Origin: Blastocatellia bacterium | GTDB taxonomy: Bacteria > Acidobacteriota > Blastocatellia > HR10 > J050 | Assembly: GCA_025054955.1 (NCBI GenBank) | Contig: JANWZE010000047.1 | Span: 1-54,898 of the forward strand | Length of the DNA stretch: 54,898 nucleotides | Direction: 5' to 3' | In this document: positions 196 through 15,716 of the stretch, piece by piece | Layout: every line of letters begins with the position of its first letter | Position numbering within the stretch: the first letter of the stretch is position 1 | Program-made: the position numbers and the translations under genes | Notes under the pieces: model-generated | What the model saw: only the letters and a program-made list of their open reading frames with translations | Told to the model about the DNA's origin: nothing | Databases searched by the model: none

Positions 196-1479
196 ATGTC
201 TGATTTCAGTTGCAGTCAAGCAATCGGTGCACGTCGCCAGATGTTTTATGGTTGGTGGATTGTGGTGGTCGCCGCCATCGGCATGTTCCTTGGCTATGGC
301 GCCGTGTTCAATTTCACGTTCAGCGTGTTTGCACGCGCCATCGGCCAAGAATTTCAGTGGAGTCGTTCAGCCTTGTCGGTGGCTTACTCGCTTTCGCTGA
401 TTACGTATGCCATCGCCATGCCACTGGTCGGGCGATGGGCCGATCGCTACGGTGCCCGCAAGGTGATCATTCCATCAGTCATTGGATTTGGGCTGTGTTT
501 GATCTCATTGCATGAGCTTTCAGCGCGACTCTGGCATTTCTACGTTGTTTGCCTGCTCATGGGGGCTGTGGGCGCCGGTTCGACCGTGGTGACTTATTTC
601 GGTGTGATTGCCCACTGGTTTAATCGGCGGCGCGGTCTGGCATTGGGATTGGCGATGATCGGCGTTGGCTTGAGCAACTTCACGATGCCTTCACTGGTGC
701 AGGCTCTGATTGAGCACGTCGGATGGCGGCATACGTATTTGCTTGTTGGCCTGGCTGTGTTGCTGGTTCCGCTGCCGGTAGGACTTTTGTTGAAAGAAAA
801 ACCGGCGATGATGGGCACGTGGCCCGATGGCCAACCGCCGGTTGAGGGCAACACGAATACATCTGGTCTGGCGATTGGCGGCCTGAGCGGACGGGAGTCG
901 CTCTCCACTGGCACCTTCTGGTTGATGTTCACAGCGGTTTTTCTCGTGGCCGTCAGTGTGATCGGTTGTTTGATTCATCTGGTGCCCATGCTGGTGGATC
1001 GTGGCATGACAGCCCAAGCGGCCGCATTTGCGACATCGTTGTTTGGCGGCGCGGTCATTCCCGGACGTGTCGGCAGTGGCTACTTGTTGGATCGTTATTT
1101 CGCTTCTCGTGTTGCGGTCGGTTTTTTCTCTGGCGCGGCGCTGGGTATTTTTCTGCTCTGGAGCGGCGCAAGCGGCGGGTTGGCTTATCTGGCGGCATTC
1201 CTGGTAGGCATGGGCATGGGCGCCGAAGGCGAGATCATGGCCTATCTGGTCAGCCGGTATTTTGGTCTACGCTCGTTCAGTGAGGTCTTCGGTTATATGA
1301 TGATCAGTTTCACCGCCGGAGGCATCGTCGGTCCGCCGATCATGGGTCTGGGGTTTGACGTGACCGGCTCATATCGGTTGGTCTTAGGAATTTTCCTGAT
1401 CGCCGTCGTGGTCGGCACATTCTTGATGACCCGGCTTGGACCATATCGCAATTGGGAATCGCCGAGCGAGGACGGATGA
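196..1479 (+). CDS. MFS transporter, OFA (oxalate/formate antiporter-like) family
   Basis: A 427-residue integral membrane transporter with about 12 hydrophobic segments, so it acts in the inner membrane. The first segment, FYGWWIVVVAAIGMF, is the typical opening of OFA-type monocarboxylate carriers. The cytoplasmic loop motif GRWADRYGARKV (around residues 75-87) is the MFS signature between helices 2 and 3. Family members carry small mono- or dicarboxylates such as oxalate, formate or pyruvate; the substrate here cannot be read from sequence. It lies 166 bp before the gamma-glutamyltranspeptidase gene and upstream of the glycine-reductase-type operon, so it may import that pathway's substrate, which is an inference. 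No clear ribosome-binding site supports the ATG at 196; the ATG at 241, just before FYGWW, is a plausible shorter start. Confidence 0.85.
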   Translation: MSDFSCSQAIGARRQMFYGWWIVVVAAIGMFLGYGAVFNFTFSVFARAIGQEFQWSRSALSVAYSLSLITYAIAMPLVGRWADRYGARKVIIPSVIGFGLCLISLHELSARLWHFYVVCLLMGAVGAGSTVVTYFGVIAHWFNRRRGLALGLAMIGVGLSNFTMPSLVQALIEHVGWRHTYLLVGLAVLLVPLPVGLLLKEKPAMMGTWPDGQPPVEGNTNTSGLAIGGLSGRESLSTGTFWLMFTAVFLVAVSVIGCLIHLVPMLVDRGMTAQAAAFATSLFGGAVIPGRVGSGYLLDRYFASRVAVGFFSGAALGIFLLWSGASGGLAYLAAFLVGMGMGAEGEIMAYLVSRYFGLRSFSEVFGYMMISFTAGGIVGPPIMGLGFDVTGSYRLVLGIFLIAVVVGTFLMTRLGPYRNWESPSEDG

Positions 1480-1645: not shown

Positions 1646-3274
1646 ATGTTGACACTCTCATTTGACAGAGCGAATCGGTTTGGTCCATCCCGCTCGGCGG
1701 TGATGAGCACGCATGCTATGGTTGCCACCAGTCAACCATTGGCGACGCTGGTTGGCCTGGACATTTTGCGACAGGGTGGAAACGCCGTGGATGCCGCCAT
1801 TGCCGCTGCTGCTATGCTGAGTGTGGTTGAACCCATGTCTACCGGCGTTGGCGGCGATGTGTTCGCGTTGATTTATCAAGCCAGCTCAGGCAAGGTTTTT
1901 GCTTTGAATGGAAGCGGACGTTCGCCTTCTGCGGCGACGCTCGACGAATATCAGCGGCGGCTAGGGACAGACGAGACAGGCCAGATTCCGCTCGATCATA
2001 TTCTGGCCGTCACTGTGCCGGGCACAGTTGATGGATGGGCGAGCGCGTTGCAGCGATTTGGCCGTATGACGCTGGCCGATGTACTGAAGCCAGCGATTGA
2101 GGCGGCTGAAGATGGTTTCGCTGTCGCGCCACAGACGGCGCAGACGTGGGCGCTCATGCAAGAGGTGTTAGCCCGTCATCCTGATTCAGCCAGCACGTGG
2201 TTACGAGCCGATGGCCGCGCGCCGCGCGCCGGTGAGCGTTTCCGCAATCCGCGTTTGGCGCGCACGTTGCGCATGATCGCGGAAGGTGGCCCCGATGTGT
2301 TTTATCGAGGCGAGCTTGCTGATGCCATCGTTCGATTTTCTCAGGCGCATGGCGGATTGTTGACGTTAGCCGACTTCAAAGACCATCGCTCAACGTGGGT
2401 TGAGCCGTTGGCGATCACGTATCGTGGTTATGACATCCTGCAACTGCCGCCCAACACGCAAGGACTCGTTGTACTGGAAACGCTGTGCACGTTGCAGCAG
2501 GATGATTTGGCTGCGCTGGGACACAACACGCCGGATACGGTGCATCTTCAACTGGAAGCGCTGAAGCTGGCGTTTGCCGATCGCAATCGCTACATCACCG
2601 ACCCTGAGTTTTACCATGCTCCCGTTGATAGCTTGCTGTCGCACGCGTATGCCCGGCAGCAACGCGCGCGGATTTCCATGACGCAGGCCGTCCGTCATCC
2701 AACGCCGGGCACGCCGGCTGGCGGTGATACTGTTTATCTATGCGTGGCCGATGCTGAGGGCAATGTTGTTTCGTTTATCAATAGCATCTTTCATCCGTTC
2801 GGTTCGGGGCTGACAGTAGGTGAGACGGGCATCGTGCTGCAAAATCGTGGAGCAAGTTTTTCGCTTGATCCGGCGCACGTCAACGTCATTGCGCCGCATA
2901 AGCGAACGCGCCACACGATCATTCCAGCCATGATCGTTTATCAAGGCCGCCCGCTCATCGCGTTTGGTGTGATGGGCGCGGATATGCAAGCGCAGGGGCA
3001 AGTCCAGTTTGTGTGCAACGTCATTGATTTCGGGATGAACGTGCAAGATGCGTTGGATGCGCCACGGTGGCAGTACCTGGGAGCGGGCGCGGACATCGCG
3101 TTAGAAGCTGGTATGCCGACGGCTGTCTGGCATGAGCTTGAGCGACGCGGCCACCAGCTCAAGGGCAGCGATGCGTTTTTTGGTGGTGGACAGGCTATCT
3201 TGATTCATCCCGAATATGGCACGCTCCAGGGTGGATCAGACCCGCGTCGCGATGGGTGCGCGATGGGGTATTGA
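1646..3274 (+). CDS. Gamma-glutamyltranspeptidase family protein
   Basis: A 542-residue Ntn-hydrolase of the gamma-glutamyltransferase family, which cleaves gamma-glutamyl amide bonds and self-processes into two chains. The N-terminal part carries LDILRQGGNAVDAAIAAAA and GVGGDVFALIY, both hallmark segments. Self-cleavage is expected before Thr362, in GGDTVYLCVADAEGN, which would become the nucleophile of the small subunit. The usual Thr-Thr-His after cleavage is Thr-Val-Tyr here, as in the YwrD-like branch, so classical glutathione hydrolase activity is uncertain. There is no signal peptide, unlike periplasmic Ggt, so the protein is probably cytoplasmic. It sits 242 bp before grdC in the same direction and may feed an amino compound into that pathway, which is an inference. 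Confidence 0.88.
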   Translation: MLTLSFDRANRFGPSRSAVMSTHAMVATSQPLATLVGLDILRQGGNAVDAAIAAAAMLSVVEPMSTGVGGDVFALIYQASSGKVFALNGSGRSPSAATLDEYQRRLGTDETGQIPLDHILAVTVPGTVDGWASALQRFGRMTLADVLKPAIEAAEDGFAVAPQTAQTWALMQEVLARHPDSASTWLRADGRAPRAGERFRNPRLARTLRMIAEGGPDVFYRGELADAIVRFSQAHGGLLTLADFKDHRSTWVEPLAITYRGYDILQLPPNTQGLVVLETLCTLQQDDLAALGHNTPDTVHLQLEALKLAFADRNRYITDPEFYHAPVDSLLSHAYARQQRARISMTQAVRHPTPGTPAGGDTVYLCVADAEGNVVSFINSIFHPFGSGLTVGETGIVLQNRGASFSLDPAHVNVIAPHKRTRHTIIPAMIVYQGRPLIAFGVMGADMQAQGQVQFVCNVIDFGMNVQDALDAPRWQYLGAGADIALEAGMPTAVWHELERRGHQLKGSDAFFGGGQAILIHPEYGTLQGGSDPRRDGCAMGY

Positions 3275-3516: not shown

Positions 3517-4992
3517 ATGAGATTTCCTGTGATCAAAGCTGTCTCCTACGCGTTGGCTCATACGCCGAATCTGGTGCGCTATGGCTCGAAGCCGGAGCGT
3601 GAATTGCGGAAAGAGCCGAGCATGATTGAACAGATAGATCGGCATCTTCGCACGTATGAAGAAGCGGTTGCCTATCCGCCCAATCAAGTCTTCATCGGCA
3701 ATATGCCGCCAGAGGCCCTCTGGGATACGGCGCGACCATGGTGGAAGCAAACAGGCGCCGCTCTGCGATTCGGGCCTTATGGTGAGATCATGCCTGAAGA
3801 CGAGCTCCTGGGTTTGCTTCGTCTGGCTGACGAGTTCGATCTGATTTGGCTGGAGCAGTCGTTTGTCGAGCAGGTTGCTGAAAAGTTGGCCGGCCACCCG
3901 TTGTTTCACCCGGATGAGGTCAAGCGGCTGGGAGCTGGTCATGCGCCGGAGGCGATTCAAGCTCGTGTGACGCAGGAAGGGGCTTTGCCGTTTTATCTGG
4001 ATGGGCAGATTGTGGGTTGTATTGCGCCGGGCCATGATGAAGACCCGTTTTTAACACCGACGATTTTGCTGGAGAATCTCGCCTGCAAAGCAACAGGGGT
4101 GCTAGCCATGCGCTGGTTGCTGCAAGCGTATCACTGTGATCAGATCAACCCGCTCACCATCGAGTATGTGATCAATACAGGCGAGGAAGCAGTTGGCGAC
4201 CGCTATCAACGCGGCGCCGGCAATCTGGCCAAAGCGATGGCTGAGTTAGCCGGTTGCCGCAACAGCACGGGCAGCGATCTCAAGGCGTTTTGCTGTGGCC
4301 CGATTCACGGCGTAATCGTGGCCGGCGGATTAGTTCAATCGGGGATTTTTCAGCAGGTGTTAGTTGTTGGCGGCGGTGCGTTGGGCAAACTTGGGATGAA
4401 GTTTCGCGGCCACCTTGCCCATGACATGCCGATTTTGGAAGACGTTCTGGGTAGTTTCGCGATTTTGATCGGGCCGGATGACGGTTTCAATCCCGTCATC
4501 CGCTTGGACGCAATTGGCAAGCATGATATTCGGTATGGGGGCTCGGCACAGGCTATTGCTCAGGCGCTGGTTGTCGAGCCGTTGAGCAAGCTGGGGCGAA
4601 CGATCCCTGAGGTCGAGCGGTATGCTGTCGAGCTGCACAATCCCGAAGTGACGGAACCCGCCGGCAGCGGGAATGTGCCGCAACACAATTACCGCGTCAT
4701 TGCCGGTTTGGCTGCGTTGCGCAAGGAGCTGCCGCGAGACGCTGTCAACAGTTTTGAGCGGACGCATGGGCTGCCGGGCTTTTCGCCGACGCAAGGACAT
4801 GTGCCATCGGCTGTGCCTTATCTAGGGCATGCGCGCGATGCGATGCTCAGTGGCTCGTTGCGCTCGGCGATGTTTATCGGCAAAGGCAGTTTGTTTCTCG
4901 GCAAGATGACCAATCTGGCCGATGGCATGTCGTTCATTCTGGAGGCGCAGGCGCCAGATACATCACACAGGCGGAGTGATCACGATGATTGA
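3517..4992 (+). CDS. grdC: Glycine/sarcosine/betaine reductase component C, beta subunit (GrdC-like)
   Basis: A 491-residue GrdC homologue. In clostridial glycine reductase, protein C takes the Se-carboxymethyl group from GrdA, forms an acetyl thioester on itself and passes it on to phosphate with GrdD. The N terminus MRFPVIKAVSYALAHTPNL matches the family, and the protein has the FabH/thiolase-like fold segments. Cys259 and Cys260, in DLKAFCCGPIHG, align with the conserved acyl-accepting cysteine region. I chose ATG 3517 because homology begins there; a longer open frame reaches back to 3424 but its extra 31 residues look non-family. No ribosome-binding site is evident, and GTG 3511 is another option. 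The 3' end overlaps the thioredoxin gene by 8 bp. No grdD partner follows, which is unusual. Confidence 0.9.
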   Translation: MRFPVIKAVSYALAHTPNLVRYGSKPERELRKEPSMIEQIDRHLRTYEEAVAYPPNQVFIGNMPPEALWDTARPWWKQTGAALRFGPYGEIMPEDELLGLLRLADEFDLIWLEQSFVEQVAEKLAGHPLFHPDEVKRLGAGHAPEAIQARVTQEGALPFYLDGQIVGCIAPGHDEDPFLTPTILLENLACKATGVLAMRWLLQAYHCDQINPLTIEYVINTGEEAVGDRYQRGAGNLAKAMAELAGCRNSTGSDLKAFCCGPIHGVIVAGGLVQSGIFQQVLVVGGGALGKLGMKFRGHLAHDMPILEDVLGSFAILIGPDDGFNPVIRLDAIGKHDIRYGGSAQAIAQALVVEPLSKLGRTIPEVERYAVELHNPEVTEPAGSGNVPQHNYRVIAGLAALRKELPRDAVNSFERTHGLPGFSPTQGHVPSAVPYLGHARDAMLSGSLRSAMFIGKGSLFLGKMTNLADGMSFILEAQAPDTSHRRSDHDD

Positions 4993-5314
4993 TGTGACCA
5001 GAGAGACATTTGAGCAAGAAGTCAAACAGGCATCCAAGCCGGTCTTGGTTGACTTTTGGGGTCCCCGATGTGGTCCCTGTTTAGCCTTGATGCCACTGGT
5101 TGAAGAGCTGTCTACTCGTTTCTCGGAGCAATTGAAAGTGGTGAAAGTGAACGCTCAAGAGAACCGCAAGCTGTGTGTCGAGTTGAAAGTGTTGTCGCTC
5201 CCCACATTTCTGTTTTTCAATCGTGGTCAGGAGCAAGCCCGGCTCAGCGGCGATATTCACGCTGATGCGCTGCAACCGTGGGTCGAGGCGCAACTGGGCA
5301 ATCTCATGGAGTGA
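4985..5314 (+). CDS. Thioredoxin of the glycine reductase type
   Basis: A 109-residue thioredoxin. The active site is CGPC (Cys29 and Cys32) in the context DFWGPRCGPC, where the usual Trp-Cys is replaced by a longer Trp-Gly-Pro-Arg-Cys. That variant is typical of thioredoxins encoded beside glycine reductase, which re-reduce the selenoprotein after each turnover. The cis-proline segment SLPTFLFF is present. The start at 4985 overlaps the end of grdC by 8 bp, so translation is likely coupled; a longer in-frame extension to 4922 lies wholly inside grdC and has no support. No thioredoxin reductase gene is nearby, whereas clostridial operons usually include one. Confidence 0.93.
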   Translation: MIDVTRETFEQEVKQASKPVLVDFWGPRCGPCLALMPLVEELSTRFSEQLKVVKVNAQENRKLCVELKVLSLPTFLFFNRGQEQARLSGDIHADALQPWVEAQLGNLME

Positions 5315-5335
5315 ATAACAGGAGGTCAAGGCACT

Positions 5336-5800
5336 ATGCAACTGGCTGGAAAGAAAGTGATCGTGCTCGGTGAACGCGACGGCGTGCAAGGCACGGCCTT
5401 GAGTGAATGCGTTAAGGCGGCTGGCGGCGAAGTCGTGCTGGCGATCAACCAGTGCTTCGTCTGAACGGCCGCCGGCGCTATGGACCTTGAGGATCAAGGT
5501 GCGATCAAAGCTAAAATTGAAGAGATTGGCAGCGAAGATGTGGTAGTCATTCTCGGCTCGCCCGATCCTGATGCCGCCGAGATGTATGCCGAGACGGTGA
5601 CGGTGGGTGATCCGACGTATGCTGGTCCGTTGGCCGGCGTTGCGTTGAGACTGCCCGTTTATTGCATCTTCGAGCCGGAGATCAAACAGCAGATTCCGCC
5701 AGACGTCTACAGCGAGCAGGTGGAGTTGATGGAAATGGTCTTGCCCAGTGAAGCCATCTCGGCGCGGGTCAAGGCCGTGCGCGAGCGAGCGCAACTCTGA
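5336..5800 (+). CDS. grdA: Glycine/sarcosine/betaine reductase selenoprotein A (GrdA), selenocysteine at TGA 5462-5464
   Basis: A 154-residue protein if the in-frame TGA at 5462-5464 (codon 43) is read as selenocysteine. The surrounding peptide is CFVUTAAGAMDLE, the GrdA signature, with Cys40 and Sec43 forming the redox pair. GrdA carries the Se-carboxymethyl intermediate between protein B and protein C and is reduced by thioredoxin. ATG 5336 is preceded by GGAGGT at 5321-5326, a strong ribosome-binding site 9 nt away. The total length is close to the roughly 158 residues of clostridial GrdA. Conventional gene callers would stop at codon 42 or report only the downstream part. The ACCTTGA-GGA-TCAAGGT hairpin at 5484-5500 is a plausible SECIS element. 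Gaps to neighbours are 21 bp and 15 bp. Confidence 0.96.
5462..5500 (+). promoter_or_regulatory. Selenocysteine TGA codon with putative bSECIS hairpin (grdA)
   Basis: The TGA at 5462-5464 is followed by a perfect 7-bp stem, 5484-5490 pairing with 5494-5500, closing a GGA loop at 5491-5493. The first loop G lies 27 nt after the TGA, inside the 16-37 nt window known for bacterial SECIS elements. A loop starting with GG or GU is what SelB recognises in characterised cases. It matches in form the hairpin after the grdB TGA. Confidence 0.75.
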
Positions 5801-5815
5801 TGGTTGGAGGTGAGC

Positions 5816-7144
5816 ATGTCCAAGCAAATTCGCGTTGTGCATTACCTGAATCAATTTTTCGGCGGTATCGGCGGTGAAGAGAAAGCCGATACACCGTTAC
5901 AAGTGCGCGATGGGCCGGTCGGTCCCGGACTTGGGTTGCAGAAAGCGCTGGGCGACCGCGGCCAGGTCGTTGCCACGTTCATTTGTGGCGATAATTTTTT
6001 CAGCAGTCACACGGATGCTGTGCTTGCAGAGCTTGAGCAAGTTGTCCCAGCTTATCAGCCGGATGTGCTGGTGGCCGGGCCAGCGTTCAATGCCGGGCGA
6101 TACGGATTTGCCTGCGGGCAGGTCGGCAAAGCACTGAGCGAACGATTGAACATTCGCGCAGTGACGGCGATGTATCCGGAGAATCCGGCCGTTGAGAATC
6201 ATCGCAGAGTGAGCGGCTTGTGGATTCTGCCGACGAGCGACCGCGCTGGCGACATGCCAAAGGTCTTACCCAAGCTCGCCGATTGGGCTGTTCGGCTAGG
6301 TCGCGGTGAACCGATTGGCCCGGCCAAGCTCGAAGGCTATATCCCCACAGGCCAGCGACGATTGCAGATGACCGATACGCCGGGCTACGAGCGAGCGTTT
6401 CGCATGCTCATGGCCAAGCTCAATGGAGAACCATTCGAGACGGAAATTCCTATCGAGCAATTTGAAATGGTGCCGCCGGCGCCGCCGCTGAAAAACGTGA
6501 AGACAGCGCGATTGGCTCTGATCACCACCTCCGGTCTGGTGCCCAGGGGCAATCCGGACAAATTCAGAATGTTCAACGCGACTCAGTGGCGCCAGTATCG
6601 CTTGCCCGATGCGCCGACGCTTCGCGGCCAGGATTGGGAGGTCATTCATGGAGGGTTCAATACAGCCTATGCTCAGCAGAACCCGCATCTGGTTCTTCCG
6701 CTGGATGTGTTACGCGAGAAAGCAGGAGAGGAGTTTGGTCGCTTGCATGATGAGTTCTATTCGATCACAGGCGTGGGAACTAGTTTGAAAGTGGCTCGGC
6801 AAGCTGGCCAACAGATAGCCGCCTCGCTCCGCGAAGCCGGTGTTGACGCGGCGTTGTTGGTAGCGACCTGAGGGACCTGCACGCGCTGCGGCGCAGCGCT
6901 CTCCAAAGAATTGGACAGAATTGGTATGCCAGTGGTCATCATCTCAGCGATGGATCAACTTGCCCAGCAAGTCGGGGCTGCTCGCGTGGTTGTGGGACGA
7001 AAGATTCCGCATCCGTGCGGCGATCCGAACCTGCCGCCTCCATTCGATATTCAAGTTCGACGCGAGATCATCCAGACGGCGCTTCGGGCGCTGGAGACGC
7101 CGGTCACCGCGCCAACGATTTTCCGGCCTGAGCATGCCATCTGA
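5816..7144 (+). CDS. grdB: Glycine/sarcosine/betaine reductase component B selenoprotein (GrdB/GrdF/GrdH-like), selenocysteine at TGA 6869-6871
   Basis: A 442-residue protein when the in-frame TGA at 6869-6871 (codon 352) is read as selenocysteine. The context VATUGTCTRCGAAL matches the UGTCTRCG centre of GrdB, GrdF and GrdH, and the N terminus has the family segment VRDGPVGPGLGLQKAL. In known systems the Sec attacks the substrate held as a Schiff base on the pyruvoyl partner GrdE, GrdG or GrdI, releasing ammonia or an amine and passing the carboxymethyl group to GrdA. No such partner is encoded in the window, so which amine, or other alpha-substituted acid, is cleaved is unknown. ATG 5816 has GGAGG at 5806-5810. 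The 91 residues after the TGA keep family homology, so this is not a truncated gene. Confidence 0.95.
6869..6899 (+). promoter_or_regulatory. Selenocysteine TGA codon with putative bSECIS hairpin (grdB)
   Basis: After the TGA at 6869-6871, bases 6883-6889 (GCGCTGC) pair perfectly with 6893-6899 (GCAGCGC) around a GGC loop at 6890-6892. The first loop G is 19 nt beyond the TGA. Stem length (7 bp), loop size (3 nt) and the GG loop start all repeat the grdA arrangement, although the stem sequences differ. Confidence 0.75.
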
Positions 7145-7213: not shown

Positions 7214-8023
7214 ATGAGCAAGACACCAGTGTTTACCAACAGACGCATGTATCGGTTGTTTGGCGAGGACGGCCGCAGCTTGGTGGTCGCTATGGATCAT
7301 GGCGGTGGATTGAATGTCTATCCATCGCTGTCTGACCCTGGCCAGGTCATCGCCGCCGTGGTGGCGGGCGGCGCTGATGCGGTGTTAACAACGCCGGGGA
7401 TACTCAAGCATTTCTATCACCAGTTGAAATCGGTTGGCGTCATTCTGCGTGTGGATGGCGGCAGTTCTGAGCTCGAAGGCAGCAGTGGAGACTACCGGCT
7501 GCTCTACTCAGTCGAAGATGCGCTGCGGTTGGGCGCCGATGCGGTGGCCTGCATGGGATTTCCTGGAAGCCCATTGGAAGCGCAAACATTGGGAAATATC
7601 GCAACGCTGGCGGCGCAGTGCCAGAGATGGGGCATGCCGTTGATGCCGGAGATGATCCCCGGTGGTTTCACCAACTGGAGCTTACGCACGGTGGAAGCCA
7701 CACGCTTGGCTGTCAGGATTGGGATTGAGCTGGGCGCTGATTTCATCAAGACGGAGTTTGTCGGCTCCGTTGATGAGTTTCGTTCGGTGGTTGCGCATAG
7801 TTATCGTCCTGTGTTGGTGCTGGGTGGCAGCCGCAAGGATGATGATCGCGCGTTGCTGAGCATGGTCAAGCAGGCGATGGACGCAGGCGCCAGCGGCGTG
7901 GTGATCGGGCGAAACGTGTGGGGTCATCCGCGACCGCAAGCGATGGTGACAGCTTTGCATCGAATTATTCACGGTCAGGCTTCCGTCCAGCAGGCGCTTG
8001 AAGTGTTGGAGTCAAACAGATGA
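7214..8023 (+). CDS. Class I aldolase of the DhnA/LsrF/FbaB family
   Basis: A 269-residue TIM-barrel aldolase of the DhnA family, which includes archaeal-type fructose-bisphosphate aldolase FbaB and the LsrF thiolase. Visible hallmarks are AMDHGG near residue 27, the GADAVLTTPG segment, and Lys179 in ADFIKTEF, expected to form the Schiff base. The C-terminal phosphate-binding region GASGVVIGRNVWGHP is intact, so the substrate is probably a sugar phosphate. Its direct coupling to an FGGY kinase (4-bp overlap) suggests that the kinase makes the phosphorylated substrate and this enzyme splits it. ATG 7214 follows a GGAGA at a suitable distance; a longer frame from 7190 is less likely. The gap from grdB is 69 bp, the second widest within the operon. 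Confidence 0.82.
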   Translation: MSKTPVFTNRRMYRLFGEDGRSLVVAMDHGGGLNVYPSLSDPGQVIAAVVAGGADAVLTTPGILKHFYHQLKSVGVILRVDGGSSELEGSSGDYRLLYSVEDALRLGADAVACMGFPGSPLEAQTLGNIATLAAQCQRWGMPLMPEMIPGGFTNWSLRTVEATRLAVRIGIELGADFIKTEFVGSVDEFRSVVAHSYRPVLVLGGSRKDDDRALLSMVKQAMDAGASGVVIGRNVWGHPRPQAMVTALHRIIHGQASVQQALEVLESNR

Positions 8024-9492
8024 ACCATCGGCACCTGTTGTTGGCGATTGATCTGGGCACGTCGGGCGTGAAAGCGGGCGTATTCGCCAGCGATGGCTCA
8101 CTGGTAGCGCAATCGGGCGTCGGGTACGAGACGCTGACGCCACATCCGGGCTGGGCTGAGCAGGAGCCGCAGGCATGGTGGGACGCCACGTGTCGCGCGG
8201 TCAGTCAATGCGTTGCTCAGTGCGATGCCACGCGGATCGAAGGCATTGGCCTGACGGGGTTGTCGCCTTCACTGGTCTGTGTGGATGAGCGGGGCGAGCC
8301 GGTGCGCCCGGCGCTTATATGGTCGGACCGACGAGTCGCACAGGAGATCAGCGAGCTGACGGAGGCGCTCGGCGCGCACTTATCATTCACACCGCTGCCG
8401 CGCCTGCTGTGGCTCAAGCGACACGAACCAAATTCCTATGAACGGACGCGCTGGGTCTTCGACTCATTCGATTATCTGAGTTTCAAAATGACCGGGCAGG
8501 CGGCTAGCTTTTGCCCCGTCGGGGATCAACTGGCCTGGTCGCCATCTGATGCGCTCAGCGCCGGTCTTGCGTTAGATAAATTTCCGTCTCGCGTCTGTAA
8601 GCTCGGAGAGCATGTCGGCGGCGTGCTGCCGGCAGTGGCCGCTCAGGTAGGGCTGCCCAGCGGATTGCCGGTGATCGCCGGAACGATTGATTCATTCGCC
8701 GCCTGGATTGGCACGGCCACGACCCGTCCGGGTGTCGTCTGCAACACGGTCGGCACATCTGATGGCGTGGCGCTCGTCTGGGACCAAGCGCTGGTTGATC
8801 CGCAAAACCGACTGCAATGCATGCCGCATCTGACCGGCCGCCATTGGATCGTCGGCGGCGCAATGTCAACCGGCGGAATTTTGTTGGAGTGGTTTGTTCG
8901 CCATTTCTACAATCACGAGCCGGACTCATTTGGCACGGCCATTCGTGAAGCCGAGGACGTATCGGTCGGCGCTGACGGCTTGCTCGCTTTGCCATATCTG
9001 GTGGGTGAACGCTCGCCTATCTTCGACCATCATGCTCGCGCGGTCTTCTTCGGCATCAGTGAGACACATGGGCGGGCGCATTTTGCTCGTGCTGTGTTGG
9101 AATCGGTCGCGTTGGCCGTGCGTGATGTGTGCCACGTGATTGAAGAAGTCGGCGGCGCTATTGACGAAATCCGCGTCGCCGGTGGCGGCGCCAAAAGCGA
9201 CTTGTGGAGTCAAATCAAGGCCGACGTGGTTGGCGTTCCTGTGCTCGTGCCGCAGATTGGCGATTCCGGCTTGCTGGGCGCCGCGATCATCGCCGGCTGG
9301 GGCGTTGGCCGCTTTACCGATTTGTCTGAAGCGGCTGAGGCAATGGTGAAGTTTCGCGCCGTCATGGAGCCACGTGTGTCTCACCATGAGATGTATACCA
9401 AGCTGTTTGAACTGTACCGCAGGTTGTATCAGCACTTGAAAGACGACTTTGTCACCGTGAGTCAACTGCTCAGACCAGAGGAGCGTCATTGA
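8020..9492 (+). CDS. FGGY-family carbohydrate kinase (xylulokinase/LsrK-like)
   Basis: A 490-residue two-domain sugar kinase. The N-terminal phosphate-binding loop is LLAIDLGTSGVKAGVF. GWAEQEPQAWW is the typical FGGY segment that follows. The catalytic aspartate is in GTIDSFAAWIG, followed by VGTSDGVAL and the adenosine-binding VAGGGAKSDLWSQIKAD near residue 390. Members phosphorylate xylulose, ribulose, erythritol, glycerol or autoinducer-2; the sugar used here cannot be told from motifs. The start ATG overlaps the aldolase stop by 4 bp (ATGA), and its own stop overlaps the aldehyde dehydrogenase start by 1 bp, so the three genes are translationally coupled and probably act in succession. 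Confidence 0.88.
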   Translation: MNHRHLLLAIDLGTSGVKAGVFASDGSLVAQSGVGYETLTPHPGWAEQEPQAWWDATCRAVSQCVAQCDATRIEGIGLTGLSPSLVCVDERGEPVRPALIWSDRRVAQEISELTEALGAHLSFTPLPRLLWLKRHEPNSYERTRWVFDSFDYLSFKMTGQAASFCPVGDQLAWSPSDALSAGLALDKFPSRVCKLGEHVGGVLPAVAAQVGLPSGLPVIAGTIDSFAAWIGTATTRPGVVCNTVGTSDGVALVWDQALVDPQNRLQCMPHLTGRHWIVGGAMSTGGILLEWFVRHFYNHEPDSFGTAIREAEDVSVGADGLLALPYLVGERSPIFDHHARAVFFGISETHGRAHFARAVLESVALAVRDVCHVIEEVGGAIDEIRVAGGGAKSDLWSQIKADVVGVPVLVPQIGDSGLLGAAIIAGWGVGRFTDLSEAAEAMVKFRAVMEPRVSHHEMYTKLFELYRRLYQHLKDDFVTVSQLLRPEERH

Positions 9493-10937
9493 TGGATGTG
9501 AAACGATACGATCATTTCATCAACGGAGCTTGGGTTGCGCCATCTTCAGGCGATTACTTTGCCGACATTGATCCATCCACAGGACAGGTGTGCGCGCACG
9601 TGGCGCGCGGCAGCGCCGACGATGTTGATCGGGCCGTTGAAGCTGCGCGCCGCGCGTTCCATGTGTGGCGCAAGGTTGAGCCGAGTGACCGTGGCCGCCT
9701 CCTGCATCGCGTGGCCGCTCGCCTGCGCAGCGAAGCGGATGAGCTGGCGTATCTGGAATGTATTGACACGGGATTTCCGCTGCGCGATTGTCAGATGATC
9801 GTTCACCATGTCGCGGCGCGTCGGTTCGAGTATTACGGCGGCTTAGCGGACAAACTTGGCGGAGAGACCATCCCTGTGCCTGGCAATCATCTGGATTACA
9901 CGTTACGCGAGCCGCTCGGCGTCGTTGGCATCATCATCCCGTGGAACAGCCCGTTGTGGGCAGGCAGCGCGTGTGTGGCGCCGGCCTTGGCCGCCGGCAA
10001 CACGATTGTGTTGAAACCGGCGGAAGAAGCGCAATTGAGCATGCTGCGACTGGCCGAGATACTGAAGCAGGAGGGCGCCCCCGACGGCGTGTTCAACGTG
10101 GTGACCGGATTAGGACCTGAAGCTGGCGCGGCGTTGGCTGGTCATCCCGGGCTTGACGCGATCTCGTTTACTGGCTCGATTGAAACAGGCCGCGAGGTGA
10201 TGAAACAGGCCGCGCAGCATGTCATCCCTGTCAGTTTGGAGCTGGGCGGTAAATCAGCCAACATTGTTTTTGCTGATGCCAACCTGGAGACGGCGCTGAT
10301 GTATGCCCTCATAGCGATTTTCACAGCGTCAGGCCAAGTCTGCACGGCCGGCTCACGCTTGTTGTTGCAGCGAGCGATCCATGATCAGTTCATGTCAAGG
10401 CTGATCGAGCGCACCGGTCAGCTTCGTGTGGGACGTGGATTGGATAATCCCGATATGGGGCCGGTCATTTCTGAACGCCAACTCAATCGCGTGTTGGGGT
10501 ATATTGAAGTTGGCGTGGCAGAAGGCGCGGCCGTGGCCATCGGCGGCCAACGATTGACCGATGAGGCGCTGGCCGATGGTTACTTCCTTGCGCCGACTAT
10601 TTTCGACGGCGTTACCCATCAGATGCGCATCGCTCAGGAAGAAATTTTCGGACCTGTCCTCTCTGTGCTGGTGTTTGACGATGCCGATGAAGCCTTGGCC
10701 ATCGCTAACGGCACATCGTATGGGCTGGCCGCCGCCGTGTGGACCCGCGACCTGAAAACCGCTCATTACATGGCCGCCCACCTGCAAGCCGGCAGCATCT
10801 ACGTCAACCGGTATTTCACCAGCGGCATCGAGGCGCCCACAGGCGGATACAAACGCAGCGGGTTTGGTCGCATTGACGGCGTTGAAGTCATGCGGCACTA
10901 CACGCAATTGAAAAACGTCATCGTCAATTTAGATTGA
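9492..10937 (+). CDS. NAD(P)-dependent aldehyde dehydrogenase
   Basis: A 481-residue member of the aldehyde dehydrogenase superfamily, which oxidises an aldehyde to the acid. The cofactor region contains PWNSPLW and FTGSIETGREV. Glu250 in LELGGKSAN and Cys284 in GQVCTAGSR are the general base and nucleophile. The C terminus PTGGYKRSGFGR is typical of ALDHs acting on small or betaine-type aldehydes. It would suit oxidation of an aldehyde released by the adjacent aldolase, for example glycolaldehyde or lactaldehyde, which is an inference. Start ATG 9492 overlaps the kinase TGA (TGATG). A TTG at 9489 is in frame but less likely. Confidence 0.93.
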   Translation: MDVKRYDHFINGAWVAPSSGDYFADIDPSTGQVCAHVARGSADDVDRAVEAARRAFHVWRKVEPSDRGRLLHRVAARLRSEADELAYLECIDTGFPLRDCQMIVHHVAARRFEYYGGLADKLGGETIPVPGNHLDYTLREPLGVVGIIIPWNSPLWAGSACVAPALAAGNTIVLKPAEEAQLSMLRLAEILKQEGAPDGVFNVVTGLGPEAGAALAGHPGLDAISFTGSIETGREVMKQAAQHVIPVSLELGGKSANIVFADANLETALMYALIAIFTASGQVCTAGSRLLLQRAIHDQFMSRLIERTGQLRVGRGLDNPDMGPVISERQLNRVLGYIEVGVAEGAAVAIGGQRLTDEALADGYFLAPTIFDGVTHQMRIAQEEIFGPVLSVLVFDDADEALAIANGTSYGLAAAVWTRDLKTAHYMAAHLQAGSIYVNRYFTSGIEAPTGGYKRSGFGRIDGVEVMRHYTQLKNVIVNLD

Positions 10938-10963
10938 AGTCTGAGTGACCGATCTTGATCTGT

Positions 10964-11929
10964 ATGTCGCGCTCGCCAGATGTGAAATTCGACAATGTAT
11001 TGGTGACAGGCGCAACCGGTTTCGTCGGCGGACGACTGATTGAACGTTTGGCCATGAATTCAGGAGTGCGTCTGCGAGCCTTGGTCAGGCATCTGGAGAA
11101 AGCTCGGTCTTTGATCGCTGGCAATGTTGATCTCGTTCAGGGCGACATCACCGATCGCCGTTCGCTTGACGCCGCTCTGAGCGATTGCGATCTCGTTTTT
11201 CATTGCGCCGCATTGATGCACGATGCGACAACTGACGCTCAAGTATTTCACCGCGTCAATGTGGAAGGAACGCGAAACATGCTGGAAGCTGCTCTGCAAG
11301 CCGGCGTCCGCCGGTTTGTGCATGTCAGCAGCATTGCTGTGTATGGAACCAGTCCGCGCGAAGGGGCCGATGAGACCGATGAGTATCAGTTCGGTCGCGA
11401 GGGCTATGCTAACTCAAAGATCGAATCTGAACAGCTTGCCCTGGCGTATCATCGGCAACGAGGCTTGCCTGTCGTTGTCATTCGCCCAGCCAATGTCTAC
11501 GGGCCGCGCTCTTCGTTCTGGACAGTCTGGATGATTGCGATGATCAAATCGGGGCAGTTGAGCTTGATTGACGATGGACAAGGCATGGCCAATCCGGTCT
11601 ACATTGATAATCTCGTTGACGCCATGCAACTGGCTGCGCGCCATACAGCCGCCGTCGGCGAGGTGTTCGTTGTGAGTGACGGAACGAAGGTCACGTGGAA
11701 AGAATTTCTTGGCTATTATGCGCGCATGGTGGGACGCGATTCATTACCGAGCATGTCCAGAGCAGAGGCTTTATCCAAGCTCGATCCGGTCCAGGTGGAG
11801 TACTGGACGCAGACGGGTTGGTTCGATATTACCAAAGCAAGGCGGATGCTGGGATATGAGCCGCGCGTGTCGCTGGCCGAAGGCATGAAACAGACCGAGC
11901 AGTGGCTGCGCCGTTCAGGTTATATTTGA
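10964..11929 (+). CDS. NAD-dependent epimerase/dehydratase (extended SDR)
   Basis: A 321-residue extended short-chain dehydrogenase. It has the Rossmann motif TGATGFVGG near the N terminus, the NGD-type segment VQGDITDRRSLDAAL, the active-site region HVSSIAVYGTS, and the YxxxK pair in GYANSKIESE. Members of this branch act as 3-beta-hydroxysteroid dehydrogenase-like or sugar-nucleotide epimerases. Within this operon oxidation, reduction or dehydration of a pathway sugar is possible, but the substrate is not evident. It follows the aldehyde dehydrogenase by 26 bp. ATG 10964 was taken over a TTG three codons earlier. Confidence 0.87.
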   Translation: MSRSPDVKFDNVLVTGATGFVGGRLIERLAMNSGVRLRALVRHLEKARSLIAGNVDLVQGDITDRRSLDAALSDCDLVFHCAALMHDATTDAQVFHRVNVEGTRNMLEAALQAGVRRFVHVSSIAVYGTSPREGADETDEYQFGREGYANSKIESEQLALAYHRQRGLPVVVIRPANVYGPRSSFWTVWMIAMIKSGQLSLIDDGQGMANPVYIDNLVDAMQLAARHTAAVGEVFVVSDGTKVTWKEFLGYYARMVGRDSLPSMSRAEALSKLDPVQVEYWTQTGWFDITKARRMLGYEPRVSLAEGMKQTEQWLRRSGYI

Positions 11930-11951
11930 AGTGAAAGGAGAGCAGGCAAAC

Positions 11952-12035
11952 GAACGGACGGCGAGGATGAAAAGATGAACTGCTGATCCGCCGCTCTGCC
12001 AGGCAGCGCAGATGAACGGACGGCGAGGATGAAAA
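11952..12035 (+). repeat. 22-bp perfect direct repeat spanning the AMP-ligase start
   Basis: GAACGGACGGCGAGGATGAA and its next two bases occur at 11952-11973 and again at 12014-12035, 62 bp apart. The second copy carries the ribosome-binding site and first ATG of the AMP-ligase gene. The first copy would give only a three-codon frame (ATG AAC TGC TGA). It looks like a duplicated translation start. Confidence 0.9.
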
Positions 12036-12037
12036 AG

Positions 12038-13579
12038 ATGAGCACAGTGAACCAGTCGGAAACGATTCGCGATTTGTTGGAGCGCGGCCAGCCGGCGAAG
12101 GTCGCCCTAGTCGTTGCCGGCGCTGGTGTCTCGATCACCTATGACCAGTTGCGCCGGCAGGTAGATGAGCTGAGCGCAATGTTCAATCGTCTGGGCCTTG
12201 GCCGTGATGATCGCATCGCCATGGCGCTGCCCAACGGATTGGAGGCGCTTATTGCTTTTCTGGCCGCAGCCCATGCAGCCACAGCCGCGCCGCTCAATCC
12301 TGCCTATAAGCGCGATGAGTTCGCGTTCTATCTTCAAGACACGCGGGCCAAGGCGCTGATTGTGCAGCCGCAGGGCGCTGATGAGGCGCTGGCCGCCGCC
12401 GATGAAGGCATCATCATTCTGCGTGCTCAGGTGGGCACTGAAGGGCGCCTCCAGGTCGTTTCATCGGGACGAATCGGAGTAGAACGAGAGCCGGCGCAAC
12501 CGCATCCTGAAGAGACAGCGCTCGTGCTGCATACCAGCGGGACAACCAGCCGGCCCAAGTGCGTGCCGCTGTCGCATACGAACTTGATTGCGTCGGCGCG
12601 ACAGATTGCACAGACTTACCAATTGTCGTCTGAGGATGTCTCCTTCTGTGTGATGCCGCTTTATCACGTGCACGGCCTGGTCGGTTCAACGCTCGCTGCG
12701 CTCTGGGCAGGGGGCACGGTGGTGATTGTGCCGCGATTTAATGCTTTGTCATTTTGGTCAACCGTTCGGCAGTATGGTGTGACGTGGTTCTCTGCTGTGC
12801 CGACCATTCATCAATTGCTACTATCGCGCGTCAAGCCAGGGACGCGGCCCGCCGGCGCCGAACAGTTGCGCTTCATTCGTTCATCCAGCGCGCCGTTACC
12901 GCCGGCGATGATGGCGCAGATGGAAGAGAGCTTCGGTGTGCCTGTGGTGGAGGCCTATGGGATGACCGAAGCGGCTCATCAGATGACCTCCAATCCGCTG
13001 CCGCCGGGCCGCCGCAAGCCTGGTTCCGTAGGGCCTGGAACAGGCGTCAGCATTGCTATTCTGGACGATCAAGGACATCATCTGCCGCTGGGGACCACAG
13101 GCGCTGTGGCCGTCAAAGGGCCAAATGTCTTCCGCGGCTATGAAAATAATCCAGAGGCAAATGCCGAATCATTCACCGACGGTTGGTTTCGCACAGGCGA
13201 TGAAGGTTGGTTGGACAGCGACGGGTATCTGACGTTAGTTGGGCGCACCAAAGAAATGATCAACCGTGGCGGAGAAAAGATTTCGCCCCGCGAGATTGAT
13301 GAAGTGCTCCTGATGCATCCGGCGGTCGCCGAGGCGGTGACGTTCGCCGTGCCGGATCAGGTCTACGGCGAGGAAGTGGCTGCCGCCGTCGTGCTCAAAG
13401 CGTCAGCGACGCCAGCCCAGTTGCTGGCGCATTGCCGGTCGGTGCTGGCCGATTTCAAATGTCCGAAAGTGATCCATCTGGTTGATGCCATTCCGCGCAC
13501 AGCCGCTACCGGCAAGGTGCAGCGGCGCGTGGTTGCCGCCGAGATTGCTCGACGGATGCAACAACAAGGAGGCTCATGA
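12038..13579 (+). CDS. AMP-dependent acyl-CoA synthetase, oxalyl-CoA synthetase (AAE3)-like
   Basis: A 513-residue ANL-family ligase that activates a carboxylic acid with ATP and then CoA. The P-loop is LVLHTSGTTSRPKC, and the adenylate-binding A5 region reads EAYGMTEAAHQMTSNPLPPG. The HQMTSNPLP extension is characteristic of the plant and fungal AAE3/Pcs60 oxalate-CoA ligase group. The hinge is GRTKEMINRGGEKISP and the C-terminal catalytic lysine is in TAATGKVQRR. Oxalate or a similar short diacid is therefore a reasonable substrate, which would fit the OFA-type carrier upstream. ATG 12038 lies 9 nt after GAGG (12025-12028); ATG 12029 is in frame but abuts the GAGG. It ends with a 4-bp overlap with the next gene. 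Confidence 0.88.
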   Translation: MSTVNQSETIRDLLERGQPAKVALVVAGAGVSITYDQLRRQVDELSAMFNRLGLGRDDRIAMALPNGLEALIAFLAAAHAATAAPLNPAYKRDEFAFYLQDTRAKALIVQPQGADEALAAADEGIIILRAQVGTEGRLQVVSSGRIGVEREPAQPHPEETALVLHTSGTTSRPKCVPLSHTNLIASARQIAQTYQLSSEDVSFCVMPLYHVHGLVGSTLAALWAGGTVVIVPRFNALSFWSTVRQYGVTWFSAVPTIHQLLLSRVKPGTRPAGAEQLRFIRSSSAPLPPAMMAQMEESFGVPVVEAYGMTEAAHQMTSNPLPPGRRKPGSVGPGTGVSIAILDDQGHHLPLGTTGAVAVKGPNVFRGYENNPEANAESFTDGWFRTGDEGWLDSDGYLTLVGRTKEMINRGGEKISPREIDEVLLMHPAVAEAVTFAVPDQVYGEEVAAAVVLKASATPAQLLAHCRSVLADFKCPKVIHLVDAIPRTAATGKVQRRVVAAEIARRMQQQGGS

Positions 13580-14559
13580 AATTCGCTGTTGTCGGCGCTG
13601 GCGCCATTGGCGCATTTGTTGGCGCAATGTTGTCTCGGTCTGGTGAGGAAGTGACGCTGATTGCGCGTGGCGCGCATCTGCGCGCGATGCAGGCGCATGG
13701 TGTGCGTGTGCGCGGCTCGTTAGGCGAGTTTCAGGCCCATCCGCAGGCGACCGATGATCCGGCAGCCGTTGGTCCGGTGGACGTGGTCTTGTTGACGTTG
13801 AAAGCGCCCAGCTTGACTGAGGTGGCGCCTCGGCTGCACCCGCTGTTGCAGTCGCACACCAGCGTTGTGACCATGCAGAACGGGATTCCATGGTGGTACT
13901 TCTACCGTCATGGCGGGCCGCTAGACGGGCTGGTGCTGCAAAGCGTTGATCCGGGCGGCGTGATCAGCCAGCATCTAGATGTCGAACGCATCATTGGCGC
14001 TGTCGTCTATTGTTCGACGATCCTTGTTGAACCGGGCGTCATCGAGCACGTGGAAGGGACGCGCTTCTCCATCGGCGAGCTGGATGGCACACGCAGCGAG
14101 CGGTGTCAACGGATTGCCGAGGCGTTTCATCGCGCTGGATTGCGCTGCCCAATCCGCAGCGATATTCGCCGCGAAATTTGGGTCAAGCTGCTGGGCAACC
14201 TTGTCTTCAATCCGATAAGCGCGTTGACGCGGGCGACGTTGGTCGAGATTGCCCAATTTCCCGAAACGCGCTCATTGGCCATCCAGATGATGCGAGAAGT
14301 TGAACAAGTGACTGAGCGGCTGGGCCTAGATTTGGGCATCTCCATTGAACAGCGACTGGCGGGCGCTGAGAAAGTCGGGTTTCATAAAACCTCCATGCTT
14401 CAGGACGTGGAAGCCGGACGACCCCTGGAGCTGGAAGCGATCGTTGGCGCTGTGGTTGAATTGGCAGGCAAACTGGGCGTGACCATGCCAGCGACACAGG
14501 CTGTGTATGCTTGCGCCAAACTCCTTTCAGCGATGATAGAAAAAGGCAAAAAACTATGA
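13576..14559 (+). CDS. 2-dehydropantoate 2-reductase (PanE/ApbA) family ketoacid reductase
   Basis: A 327-residue 6-phosphogluconate-dehydrogenase-like reductase. The N-terminal nucleotide-binding motif is [15 protein letters not shown], and the family segments VTMQNGI and [10 protein letters not shown], with its conserved Lys and Asn, are present. The C-terminal [17 protein letters not shown] carries the family's conserved Ser/Asp/Glu cluster. True PanE reduces ketopantoate for pantothenate synthesis; a homologue inside a catabolic operon more likely reduces another 2-keto acid with NAD(P)H, which is an inference. Its ends overlap both neighbours by 4 bp (ATGA), so it is translationally coupled to the AMP ligase and the aminotransferase. 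Confidence 0.87.
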
Positions 14560-15716
14560 CGATCAATCCAACGCCACATCGGTTATTGCTTGGGCCGGGA
14601 CCAAGCCCCGTTGAGCAGCGTGTGCTAGACGCGCTGGCTCAGCCATTGCTCGGACATTTGGACCCGGCCTTCCTGAGCATCATGGACGAGATTCAAGAGT
14701 TGTTGCGGTATGTCTTCGAAACGGGCAACCGATTGACGATCCCGATTTCGGGCACAGGCAGCGCCGGCATGGAGGCCGCGTTGGTCAACCTGCTGGAGCC
14801 CGGCGATACGGCCATTGTGTGTATCCACGGCGTATTTGGTGAACGCATGTTTGATATTGTCGGTCGCGCCGGCGCCCGACCTGTGGCGATTCGCGCCGAG
14901 TGGGGCGAACCGATTGATGTCAACCAAGTCGAAGAGGTCCTCAAGCAAACGTCAGCTCGATTGGTCGCGATTGTTCATGCTGAGACGTCCACCGGCGTGC
15001 GACAATGTTTGGACGGATTAGCTGAACTGGCTCACCGTCATGGCGCGTTGCTCGTGGTTGACGCAGTGACATCGCTTGGAGGCCTGCCCGTCGGTGTTGA
15101 CGCGCAGCAAATTGATGTGTGTTATTCGGGCACGCAAAAGTGTTTGAGCTGCCCGCCCGGCTTGGCGCCGATTACATTTTCCGAGCGCGCGCGAGAACGC
15201 ATTCGGTCGCGTCAACACAAGGTTCAGAGTTGGTATCTGGACATGACGATGGTGGAACGGTATTGGGGAGCTGAGCGAACCTATCATCACACAGCTCCGA
15301 TTTCCATGAACTATGCGCTGCGGGAGGCGCTACGCGTGGTGCGCGAAGAGGGATTACAAGCGCGATGGCGACGTCACGAGTTAAACCATCGCGCGTTTGT
15401 CGCCGGCATTGAGGCGATGGGCTTGCAGATGCTCGTTGCTGAGCAACATCGCCTGTGGAGTTTGAATACTGTGCGCGTGCCTGATGGTGTCGAGGATGAG
15501 CTGGTGCGGTCGCGATTATTGCAGCACCACAACATTGAAATTGGCGGCGGACTAGGCCCGCTTAAGGGTCGTATCTGGCGGTTTGGGTTGATGGGCGCCG
15601 GCAGCACGCGGGCGAATGTATTGCGCGCGCTGGATGCGCTTCATGAGTCGCTTCAGGCCGTTGGGTATGATTGTCCCTCCGGCGTGGCGGCAGCCGAGCG
15701 CATTTATCAGGAATGA
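14556..15716 (+). CDS. Class V aminotransferase (alanine-glyoxylate/serine-glyoxylate type)
   Basis: A 386-residue PLP enzyme of the alanine-glyoxylate/serine-pyruvate aminotransferase group. It starts with [18 protein letters not shown], has the [12 protein letters not shown] cofactor-phosphate loop, [10 protein letters not shown] with the pyridine-nitrogen aspartate, and Lys195 in [13 protein letters not shown] as the Schiff-base lysine. Family members transfer an amino group to glyoxylate, giving glycine. That would be a striking partner for a glycine-reductase-type module four to ten genes upstream, although the link is inferred. ATG 14556 overlaps the previous stop; a longer frame from 14511 lies inside the preceding gene. 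This is the last gene of the operon; the next 353 bp hold no gene. Confidence 0.92.

Follow-up and report, generated by a model that had tools for sequence, protein, structure and literature searches.

How a glycine-reductase-type system would work when GrdD, the subunit through which the product normally leaves as acetyl phosphate, is missing is the question raised by a short gene cluster in the Blastocatellia bacterium genome GCA_025054955.1 (G000). The cluster lies within the 54,898 nucleotides of contig JANWZE010000047.1 analysed here (the window). The original prediction saw in it a reduced module that might act on a different substrate, or release an acyl thioester. We propose, at what we judge to be even chances, that the locus belongs to a GrdD-independent selenocysteine (Sec) reductase variant with two substrate modules, in which GrdC works without GrdD and the acyl group likely passes to CoA.

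The grd locus and selenocysteine decoding

Profile matches support four genuine genes in the order grdC–trx–grdA–grdB, all on the forward strand of the window. These are grdC (3517..4992; NF040746, 641 bits, cut-off 450), encoding a KASIII-fold component C subunit beta of a GrdD-less clade; a CGPC thioredoxin gene (4985..5314; PF00085), the start of which overlaps the grdC stop; grdA, encoding selenoprotein A with CFVU (5336..5800; NF040748, 210.5 bits, cut-off 130); and grdB1, encoding selenoprotein B (5816..7144; TIGR01918, 437.5 bits, cut-off 65.45; PF07355). No grdE, grdD or trxB adjoins these genes in the window, as first described for the locus.

Both selenoprotein genes are read through an in-frame UGA as Sec: at 5462..5464 in grdA (CFVUTAAGAMD), with an identical codon at this position in the relative L039, and at 6869..6871 in grdB1 (VATUGTCTRCG). 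The Sec motifs of Grd complexes, CxxU in GrdA (CFVU) and UxxCxxC in GrdB (UGTCTRC), are present. SelB is encoded in this genome and scores above cut-off in 7/7 genomes tested. A SECIS-like hairpin of 7 base pairs (6883..6899) lies 3′ of the grdB1 UGA; the corresponding element is 100% paired in seven grdB genes and includes two pairs in which both bases have changed, a paired-base count that is informative over the seven genes even though its shuffles ignore the relatedness of the sequences. Free-energy z-scores calculated for individual UGA regions gave no clear signal.

Further 3′ on the same strand are a DhnA/DeoC-type aldolase gene (7214..8023), also found 3′ of the grd genes in the sister genome G371, and genes for an FGGY carbohydrate kinase (8020..9492) and an aldehyde dehydrogenase (9489..10937), both retained in the G371 cluster; all three were assigned by profile matches. 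Upstream, an MFS transporter gene of the oxalate/formate-antiporter type (196..1479, forward strand) has a same-type counterpart in the G371 cluster at 33% identity. Across genera of the family, the Grd proteins share 67–85% identity, and G371 and J050 keep the gene order. With its amidohydrolases, aldolase and dehydrogenases, the Blastocatellia grd cluster has a catabolic look.

Substrate modules on a second contig

A second contig of the same genome, C1, carries two PF09338 (GrdE-type) genes scoring 414 and 331 bits, together with a second Sec-containing GrdB (GrdB2); the view that this genome has no GrdE is therefore wrong. No sequence overlap joins C1 to the window, and in this genome the genes are divided between two contigs. 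In G371 it forms one cluster, grdC–trx–grdA–grdB1–grdE1–grdB2–grdE2, in which the genes found on C1 directly follow the four seen in the window; in J050 a single cluster is seen as far as grdA. The idea of a reduced module without a substrate-binding subunit accordingly has to be given up. GrdB1 probably pairs with GrdE1 and GrdB2 with GrdE2, the two pairs having one GrdA in common.

These subunits depart from characterized types. The cysteine that forms the pyruvoyl group is missing from both GrdE copies, which have SGVVGKDAV and SGNNVGQSM in place of SGNCVSACDK, and in a motif search neither GrdB fits the published glycine or sarcosine motif. The combination that marks glycine reductase proper, a GrdB glycine motif with a GrdE GNC pyruvoyl site, is thus not found, and scores fall short of the models for sarcosine reductase (GrdF, 454.7 and 504.4 of 800; GrdG, 243 and 311 of 780), betaine reductase (GrdH, 390.9 and 434.4 of 775), fluoroacetate reductase (FarE, 119.7 and 126.1 of 675) and D-proline reductase (PrdB, 86.6 of 300; PrdA, 35.3 of 700). 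Because both GrdEs are without the pyruvoyl cysteine and neither GrdB fits the glycine or sarcosine motif, it is plausible, judging from sequence, that the substrate differs from those of known Grd enzymes.

Absence of GrdD and its distribution

Genome-wide, the best match to the GrdD model NF040747 reaches 20.9 bits (cut-off 350); the gene is an ordinary plsX adjacent to fabH. No GrdD scores above cut-off in G000, G371, G396, G398, G399, G401 or G413, and none is encoded in the fully read cluster of G714, where the cluster alone was covered. Beyond this genome, GrdD is likewise missing from two Blastocatellia relatives, from a Halanaerobiaceae MAG and from Bipolaricaulota. In the rest of the survey, nearly all GrdCs have an immediately adjoining or fused GrdD; in the phylum of G398, 68/72 genomes with GrdC have GrdD. 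Two of the remaining four, G509 and G593, were rejected as GrdD-less because grdD begins after grdC and is truncated by the contig end, which leaves G398 and G413. A scan of viral contigs yielded no GrdC.

The missing GrdD thus holds genome-wide and is common to relatives, and the proposed survey of other genomes recovered the same loss; the genome search proposed alongside it came out as expected for grdD and the other way for grdE. The original prediction, which staked itself on normal grdE and grdD not lying elsewhere in the genome, loses ground on the presence of grdE only, the two GrdEs being non-pyruvoyl and grdD absent. As the absence of GrdD is real and common to relatives, the suggestion of an acyl-thioester product remains open.

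Acetate kinase (AckA) was found in 32/32 canonical genomes tested versus 0/5 among Blastocatellia (three) and Bipolaricaulota (two); it is present in GrdD-less G398, G401 and G413. Bipolaricaulota have no phosphotransacetylase (Pta) of the PF01515 type. Blastocatellia do carry Pta and could therefore still make use of acetyl phosphate. PF01515 was rejected as a discriminator because its distribution does not tell the GrdD-less genomes from the canonical ones.

GrdC without its partner

The C-terminal helix of GrdC is missing in 7/7 full-length sequences from the GrdD-less group, and every canonical GrdC has it. The window GrdC lacks it and carries clade-specific residues, including Q374H. In the tree, GrdD-less GrdCs form one clade of six with support of 100/100, plus the outlier G413, which indicates two losses of GrdD. 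Membership of G413 in the same clade was rejected on account of its separate position, on a long branch. The grdE of G413 is frame-broken.

The region around GrdC Cys259 aligns with the KASIII nucleophile, both by HHalign against FabH and in KASIII structure matches. This is where the likeness to KASIII (FabH) acyltransferases lies; overall similarity is low and the second half aligns poorly. To our knowledge, the function of GrdC is not condensation. HHalign sets the FabH catalytic histidine opposite GrdC Glu372, two residues from His374; for this reason, we do not claim His374, near but not at that place, as catalytic. An AlphaFold2 model of GrdC built with eight sequences had a mean pLDDT of 49, too low for fold search or active-site mapping.

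Proposed mechanism and alternatives

From these features we infer each chemical step, the kind of substrate and CoA as acceptor. GrdE and GrdB would bind an α-substituted carboxylate without a pyruvoyl Schiff base, and the GrdB selenolate would attack the α carbon, with loss of the substituent. Sec of GrdA would next take up the carboxymethyl (or alkyl-carboxymethyl) group; subsequent thiol attack would leave GrdC Cys259 carrying an acyl thioester and GrdA oxidized, to be reduced by thioredoxin. Since phosphorolysis of the thioester by GrdD is not available, KASIII-fold GrdC could hand the acyl group to a diffusible thiol, likeliest CoA, yielding acyl-CoA. An acyl thioester rather than acetyl phosphate is the best-supported option for the product.

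Another enzyme could replace GrdD, the product still being acetyl phosphate. PlsX, a GrdD homologue that makes acyl phosphate from acyl-ACP, would be the simplest candidate, as a housekeeping plsX is the sole weak GrdD-like match in G000; the acetate kinase of G398, G401 and G413 and the Pta of Blastocatellia would fit this reading. We consider it unlikely, given that plsX has its customary location next to fabH, that loss of the GrdC tail speaks against a GrdD-type partner having been kept, and that Blastocatellia and Bipolaricaulota lack acetate kinase, the latter also lacking PF01515-type Pta. Hydrolysis of the GrdC acyl thioester to the free acid, with the system serving for electron removal or substrate opening only and conserving no energy, would suit the non-pyruvoyl type of both GrdE copies and the catabolic-looking cluster, but is similarly improbable: GrdC is conserved with its KASIII-type cysteine, a free acid would need a ligase for further use, and we know of no esterase of the GrdC type.

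That GrdD is present but was missed, through incomplete assemblies or divergence beyond recognition, would be in keeping with genomes that are all drafts or MAGs, with completeness figures for G000 and G371 only and G714 checked in its cluster only. Those figures are 99.5% and 98%, however, GrdD adjoins GrdC where it is present, and the fully read G714 and G371 clusters contain no unaccounted gene of GrdD size, making an overlooked GrdD very improbable. Least credible is a decaying remnant of glycine reductase. The set is indeed split over two contigs and lacks GrdD, yet all frames are intact, the Sec codons and hairpin are retained, and both protein identity between genera and gene order in G371 and J050 are preserved.

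Significance and comparison with known systems

More tentatively, and at somewhat below even odds, GrdC of this clade may alone be an acyltransferase to CoA, opening a direct reductive path to acyl-CoA that starts from glycine or another substituted acetate, with the Blastocatellia version acting on a substrate new to Grd enzymes. If so, GrdD, held to be essential, would become an add-on for substrate-level phosphorylation. A natural clade with GrdC and without GrdD separates the two jobs in a way that is testable with purified proteins, and the activation steps by which protein C converts the GrdA selenoether to activated acetyl are still to be identified (PMC10298544). For genomes with a GrdC of the GrdD-less clade, acetyl phosphate and acetate-kinase ATP from glycine should not be assumed by default, which would change pathway predictions and matters for serpentinite and subsurface bacteria, where glycine reduction is a proposed source of energy (PMC9751293, PMC9469722).

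Compared with clostridial glycine reductase (GrdA, GrdB/E, GrdC/D, Trx, TrxB), the system described here has Sec-GrdA, Sec-GrdB, a GrdE-family protein, GrdC and thioredoxin in common. It differs in having no GrdD, a GrdE without the pyruvoyl cysteine, a GrdC without the C-terminal helix, a GrdB that departs from the glycine motif, two sets of B and E subunits and catabolic genes in the cluster. Lost City MAGs, including Bipolaricaulota, have GrdEBCA clusters with SelA, SelB and TrxA, described in a text that does not mention GrdD (PMC9469722). G399 and G714 have the same gene content; their GrdE carries the GNC pyruvoyl site and their GrdB fits the 3′ half of the glycine motif. In the betaine (GrdH/GrdI) and fluoroacetate (FarB/FarE) systems, the GrdE-type subunit lacks the cysteines for pyruvoyl formation (PMC10838667). 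The window genome falls a long way short of the FarE and GrdH models; in those systems, the B/E pair supplies a common GrdA and protein C. GrdI and FarE are thought to bind substrate without a pyruvoyl Schiff base, as we propose here.

A split, selenocysteine-dependent grd locus

The Blastocatellia genome examined here (G000; 4.69 Mb, 99.5% complete) encodes an authentic variant of the glycine-reductase type, split and independent of GrdD. In the window, which spans the whole of contig C47, all four genes lie where the original prediction placed them: grdC (3517-4992), grdA (5336-5800) and grdB (5816-7144) encode products above the curated NCBIfam cut-offs for GrdC, GrdA and GrdB, respectively, and the thioredoxin gene (4985-5314) exceeds its Pfam cut-off. 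One UGA is read through in each of grdA and grdB, at the selenocysteine (Sec) position of the family. Across seven grdB genes, the hairpin located 12-28 nt 3′ of the UGA keeps complete pairing, two of its base pairs being altered on both sides, and pairing drops to 18-31% in most directions when the partner is shifted by one or two columns; SelB is above cut-off in the genome. These genes are a genuine Sec-dependent set and not a product of chance. A gamma-glutamyltransferase gene lies directly 5′ of grdC (1646-3274), unlike in the related G371 cluster described below, and a tRNA gene at 1-60 has lost its 5′ end at the contig start (its Rfam tRNA match begins at model position 14).

GrdE had been predicted to be absent, and this part of the prediction fell: contig C1 of the same genome (15.5 kb; locus L004) carries two GrdE-family genes, grdE1 (10914-12218) and grdE2 (13948-15249), and a second Sec-containing GrdB gene, grdB2 (12623-13951), with its UGA within TSNUATCSRCG. 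Blastocatellia bacterium isolate 356-308 (G371), of the same family, has a single cluster with the core order grdC, trx, grdA, grdB1, grdE1, grdB2, grdE2. Its grdC is preceded by genes for a 3-hydroxyanthranilate-dioxygenase-like protein, a conserved 272-aa protein, an EamA transporter and an M20 amidohydrolase, and then a cyclase, an MFS transporter, an ATZ-type amidohydrolase, an alcohol dehydrogenase, and glyoxalase-type and Dabb proteins; a TonB-type receptor, an aldolase, an FGGY kinase and an aldehyde dehydrogenase follow grdE2. Because the parts of this cluster divide over the window and C1, one to each, the GrdE gap reflects a split locus, with the adjacency of the two contigs putative. 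In a third genome, that of Acidobacteria J050, gene order is identical as far as grdA, where the contig ends.

Between grdE1 and grdB2, a small stand-alone gene of the allophanate-hydrolase C-terminal (AH_C) type (L004 12220-12627), present in G000 and not in G371, possibly encodes an accessory to the B module. The genes preceding the cluster on C1 (L004:1328-3438; relatives in loci L043 and L099) encode two ferredoxins, one 2Fe-2S and one 4Fe-4S, together with a protein weakly resembling 3-hydroxyanthranilate dioxygenase and a 272-aa protein that matches no Pfam family and is 86% identical in relatives. Sec reductases of the Grd type are normally found in anaerobes; these genes may represent an oxygen-using step beside one.

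Loss of GrdD in several bacterial groups

The predicted absence of GrdD stands: a search of G000 returned only plsX, adjoining fabH, and G371 and J050 gave only a weak PlsX-like match. GrdC scores above cut-off in just two of 396 genomes of the phylum, G000 and G371. A GTDB genome scan for relatives of the G000 GrdC returned MAGs of Halanaerobiaceae (53% identity), Candidatus Acetothermia (51%) and Thermoanaerobacterales (49%, partial), in all of which a search found no GrdD, and two Bacillota MAGs, both with GrdD. The same loss recurs in several bacterial groups. Of the 72 GrdC genomes tested in the phylum to which the Halanaerobiaceae MAG belongs, 68 also encode GrdD, which as a rule adjoins or is fused to GrdC; in two it is cut off at a contig end, and it is absent from two (G398 and G413). 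Within the Acetothermia MAG's phylum, GrdC occurs in only 2 of 100 genomes, neither cluster containing GrdD; the G714 cluster, to which the search for GrdD in that genome was confined, was read whole with every gene assigned and is selB-selA-grdA-grdC-grdB-grdE-trx. In the GrdD-less G413 cluster, grdE is divided over two frames (L090:4150-5441) and a sodium-solute-symporter-like gene separates grdC from grdB. The opposite trend is seen in natural GrdC-GrdD fusions, single open frames of 828-953 codons (G479, G566, G616, G591, G641, G436 and G547). The GrdD-less arrangement has been seen before, in a Lost City MAG study naming clusters GrdEBCA with SelA, SelB and TrxA, the text of which is silent on GrdD (PMC9469722); we found no paper remarking on the absence.

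GrdC features and the fate of the acyl group

All seven full-length GrdD-less GrdCs end right after the core (476-491 residues), whereas canonical GrdCs carry about 25 extra residues with a conserved helix-like motif (35 of 35 sequences, from 36 rows with one locus twice). Six of these group in a single clade (support 100/100), with G413 falling outside it, which requires two losses of GrdD. The clade carries Tyr230, Lys256, Gly298 and His374; the canonical residues at these positions are Asn, Arg, Asp or Glu, and Gln, respectively. Acetate kinase is present in all 32 canonical genomes tested versus none of three Blastocatellia and two Bipolaricaulota, a GrdD-less versus canonical contrast to which we attach no probability because genomes are not independent samples; it is retained in GrdD-less G398, G401 and G413. 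Phosphotransacetylase does not separate the two sets.

Clostridial work assigns phosphorolysis to GrdD. Acetyl phosphate is the textbook product, ascribed to protein C (PMC10298544). GrdC is a relative of KASIII, Cys259 aligning with the KASIII nucleophile, and its lost C-terminal helix is likely the docking site for GrdD. With GrdD and the likely docking helix both gone, the simplest proposal is that the acyl group would pass from GrdC to CoA; the acyl thioester release originally suggested is a reasonable idea. Alternatively, PlsX, the sole GrdD-like match in G000, could stand in for GrdD, or the acyl group could be lost by plain hydrolysis.

Substrate side and comparison with known systems

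The amidohydrolases, cyclase, aldolase and kinase of the cluster suggest that the substrate is freed from a larger compound. The GrdBs fit neither of the motifs that PMC9751293 gives for glycine and sarcosine, and reach none of the substrate-specific models. Both GrdE copies, in G000 and G371 alike, lack the pyruvoyl-forming cysteine, with the motifs SGVVGKDAV and SGNNVGQSM versus the pyruvoyl-type SGNCVSACDK. The copies from Halanaerobiaceae and Bipolaricaulota differ in having the GNC site together with the 3′ half of the glycine motif, so that loss of GrdD and loss of the pyruvoyl group are separate matters. The fluoroacetate protein FarE and, as reported in PMC10838667, the betaine protein GrdI are likewise without the pyruvoyl-forming cysteine.
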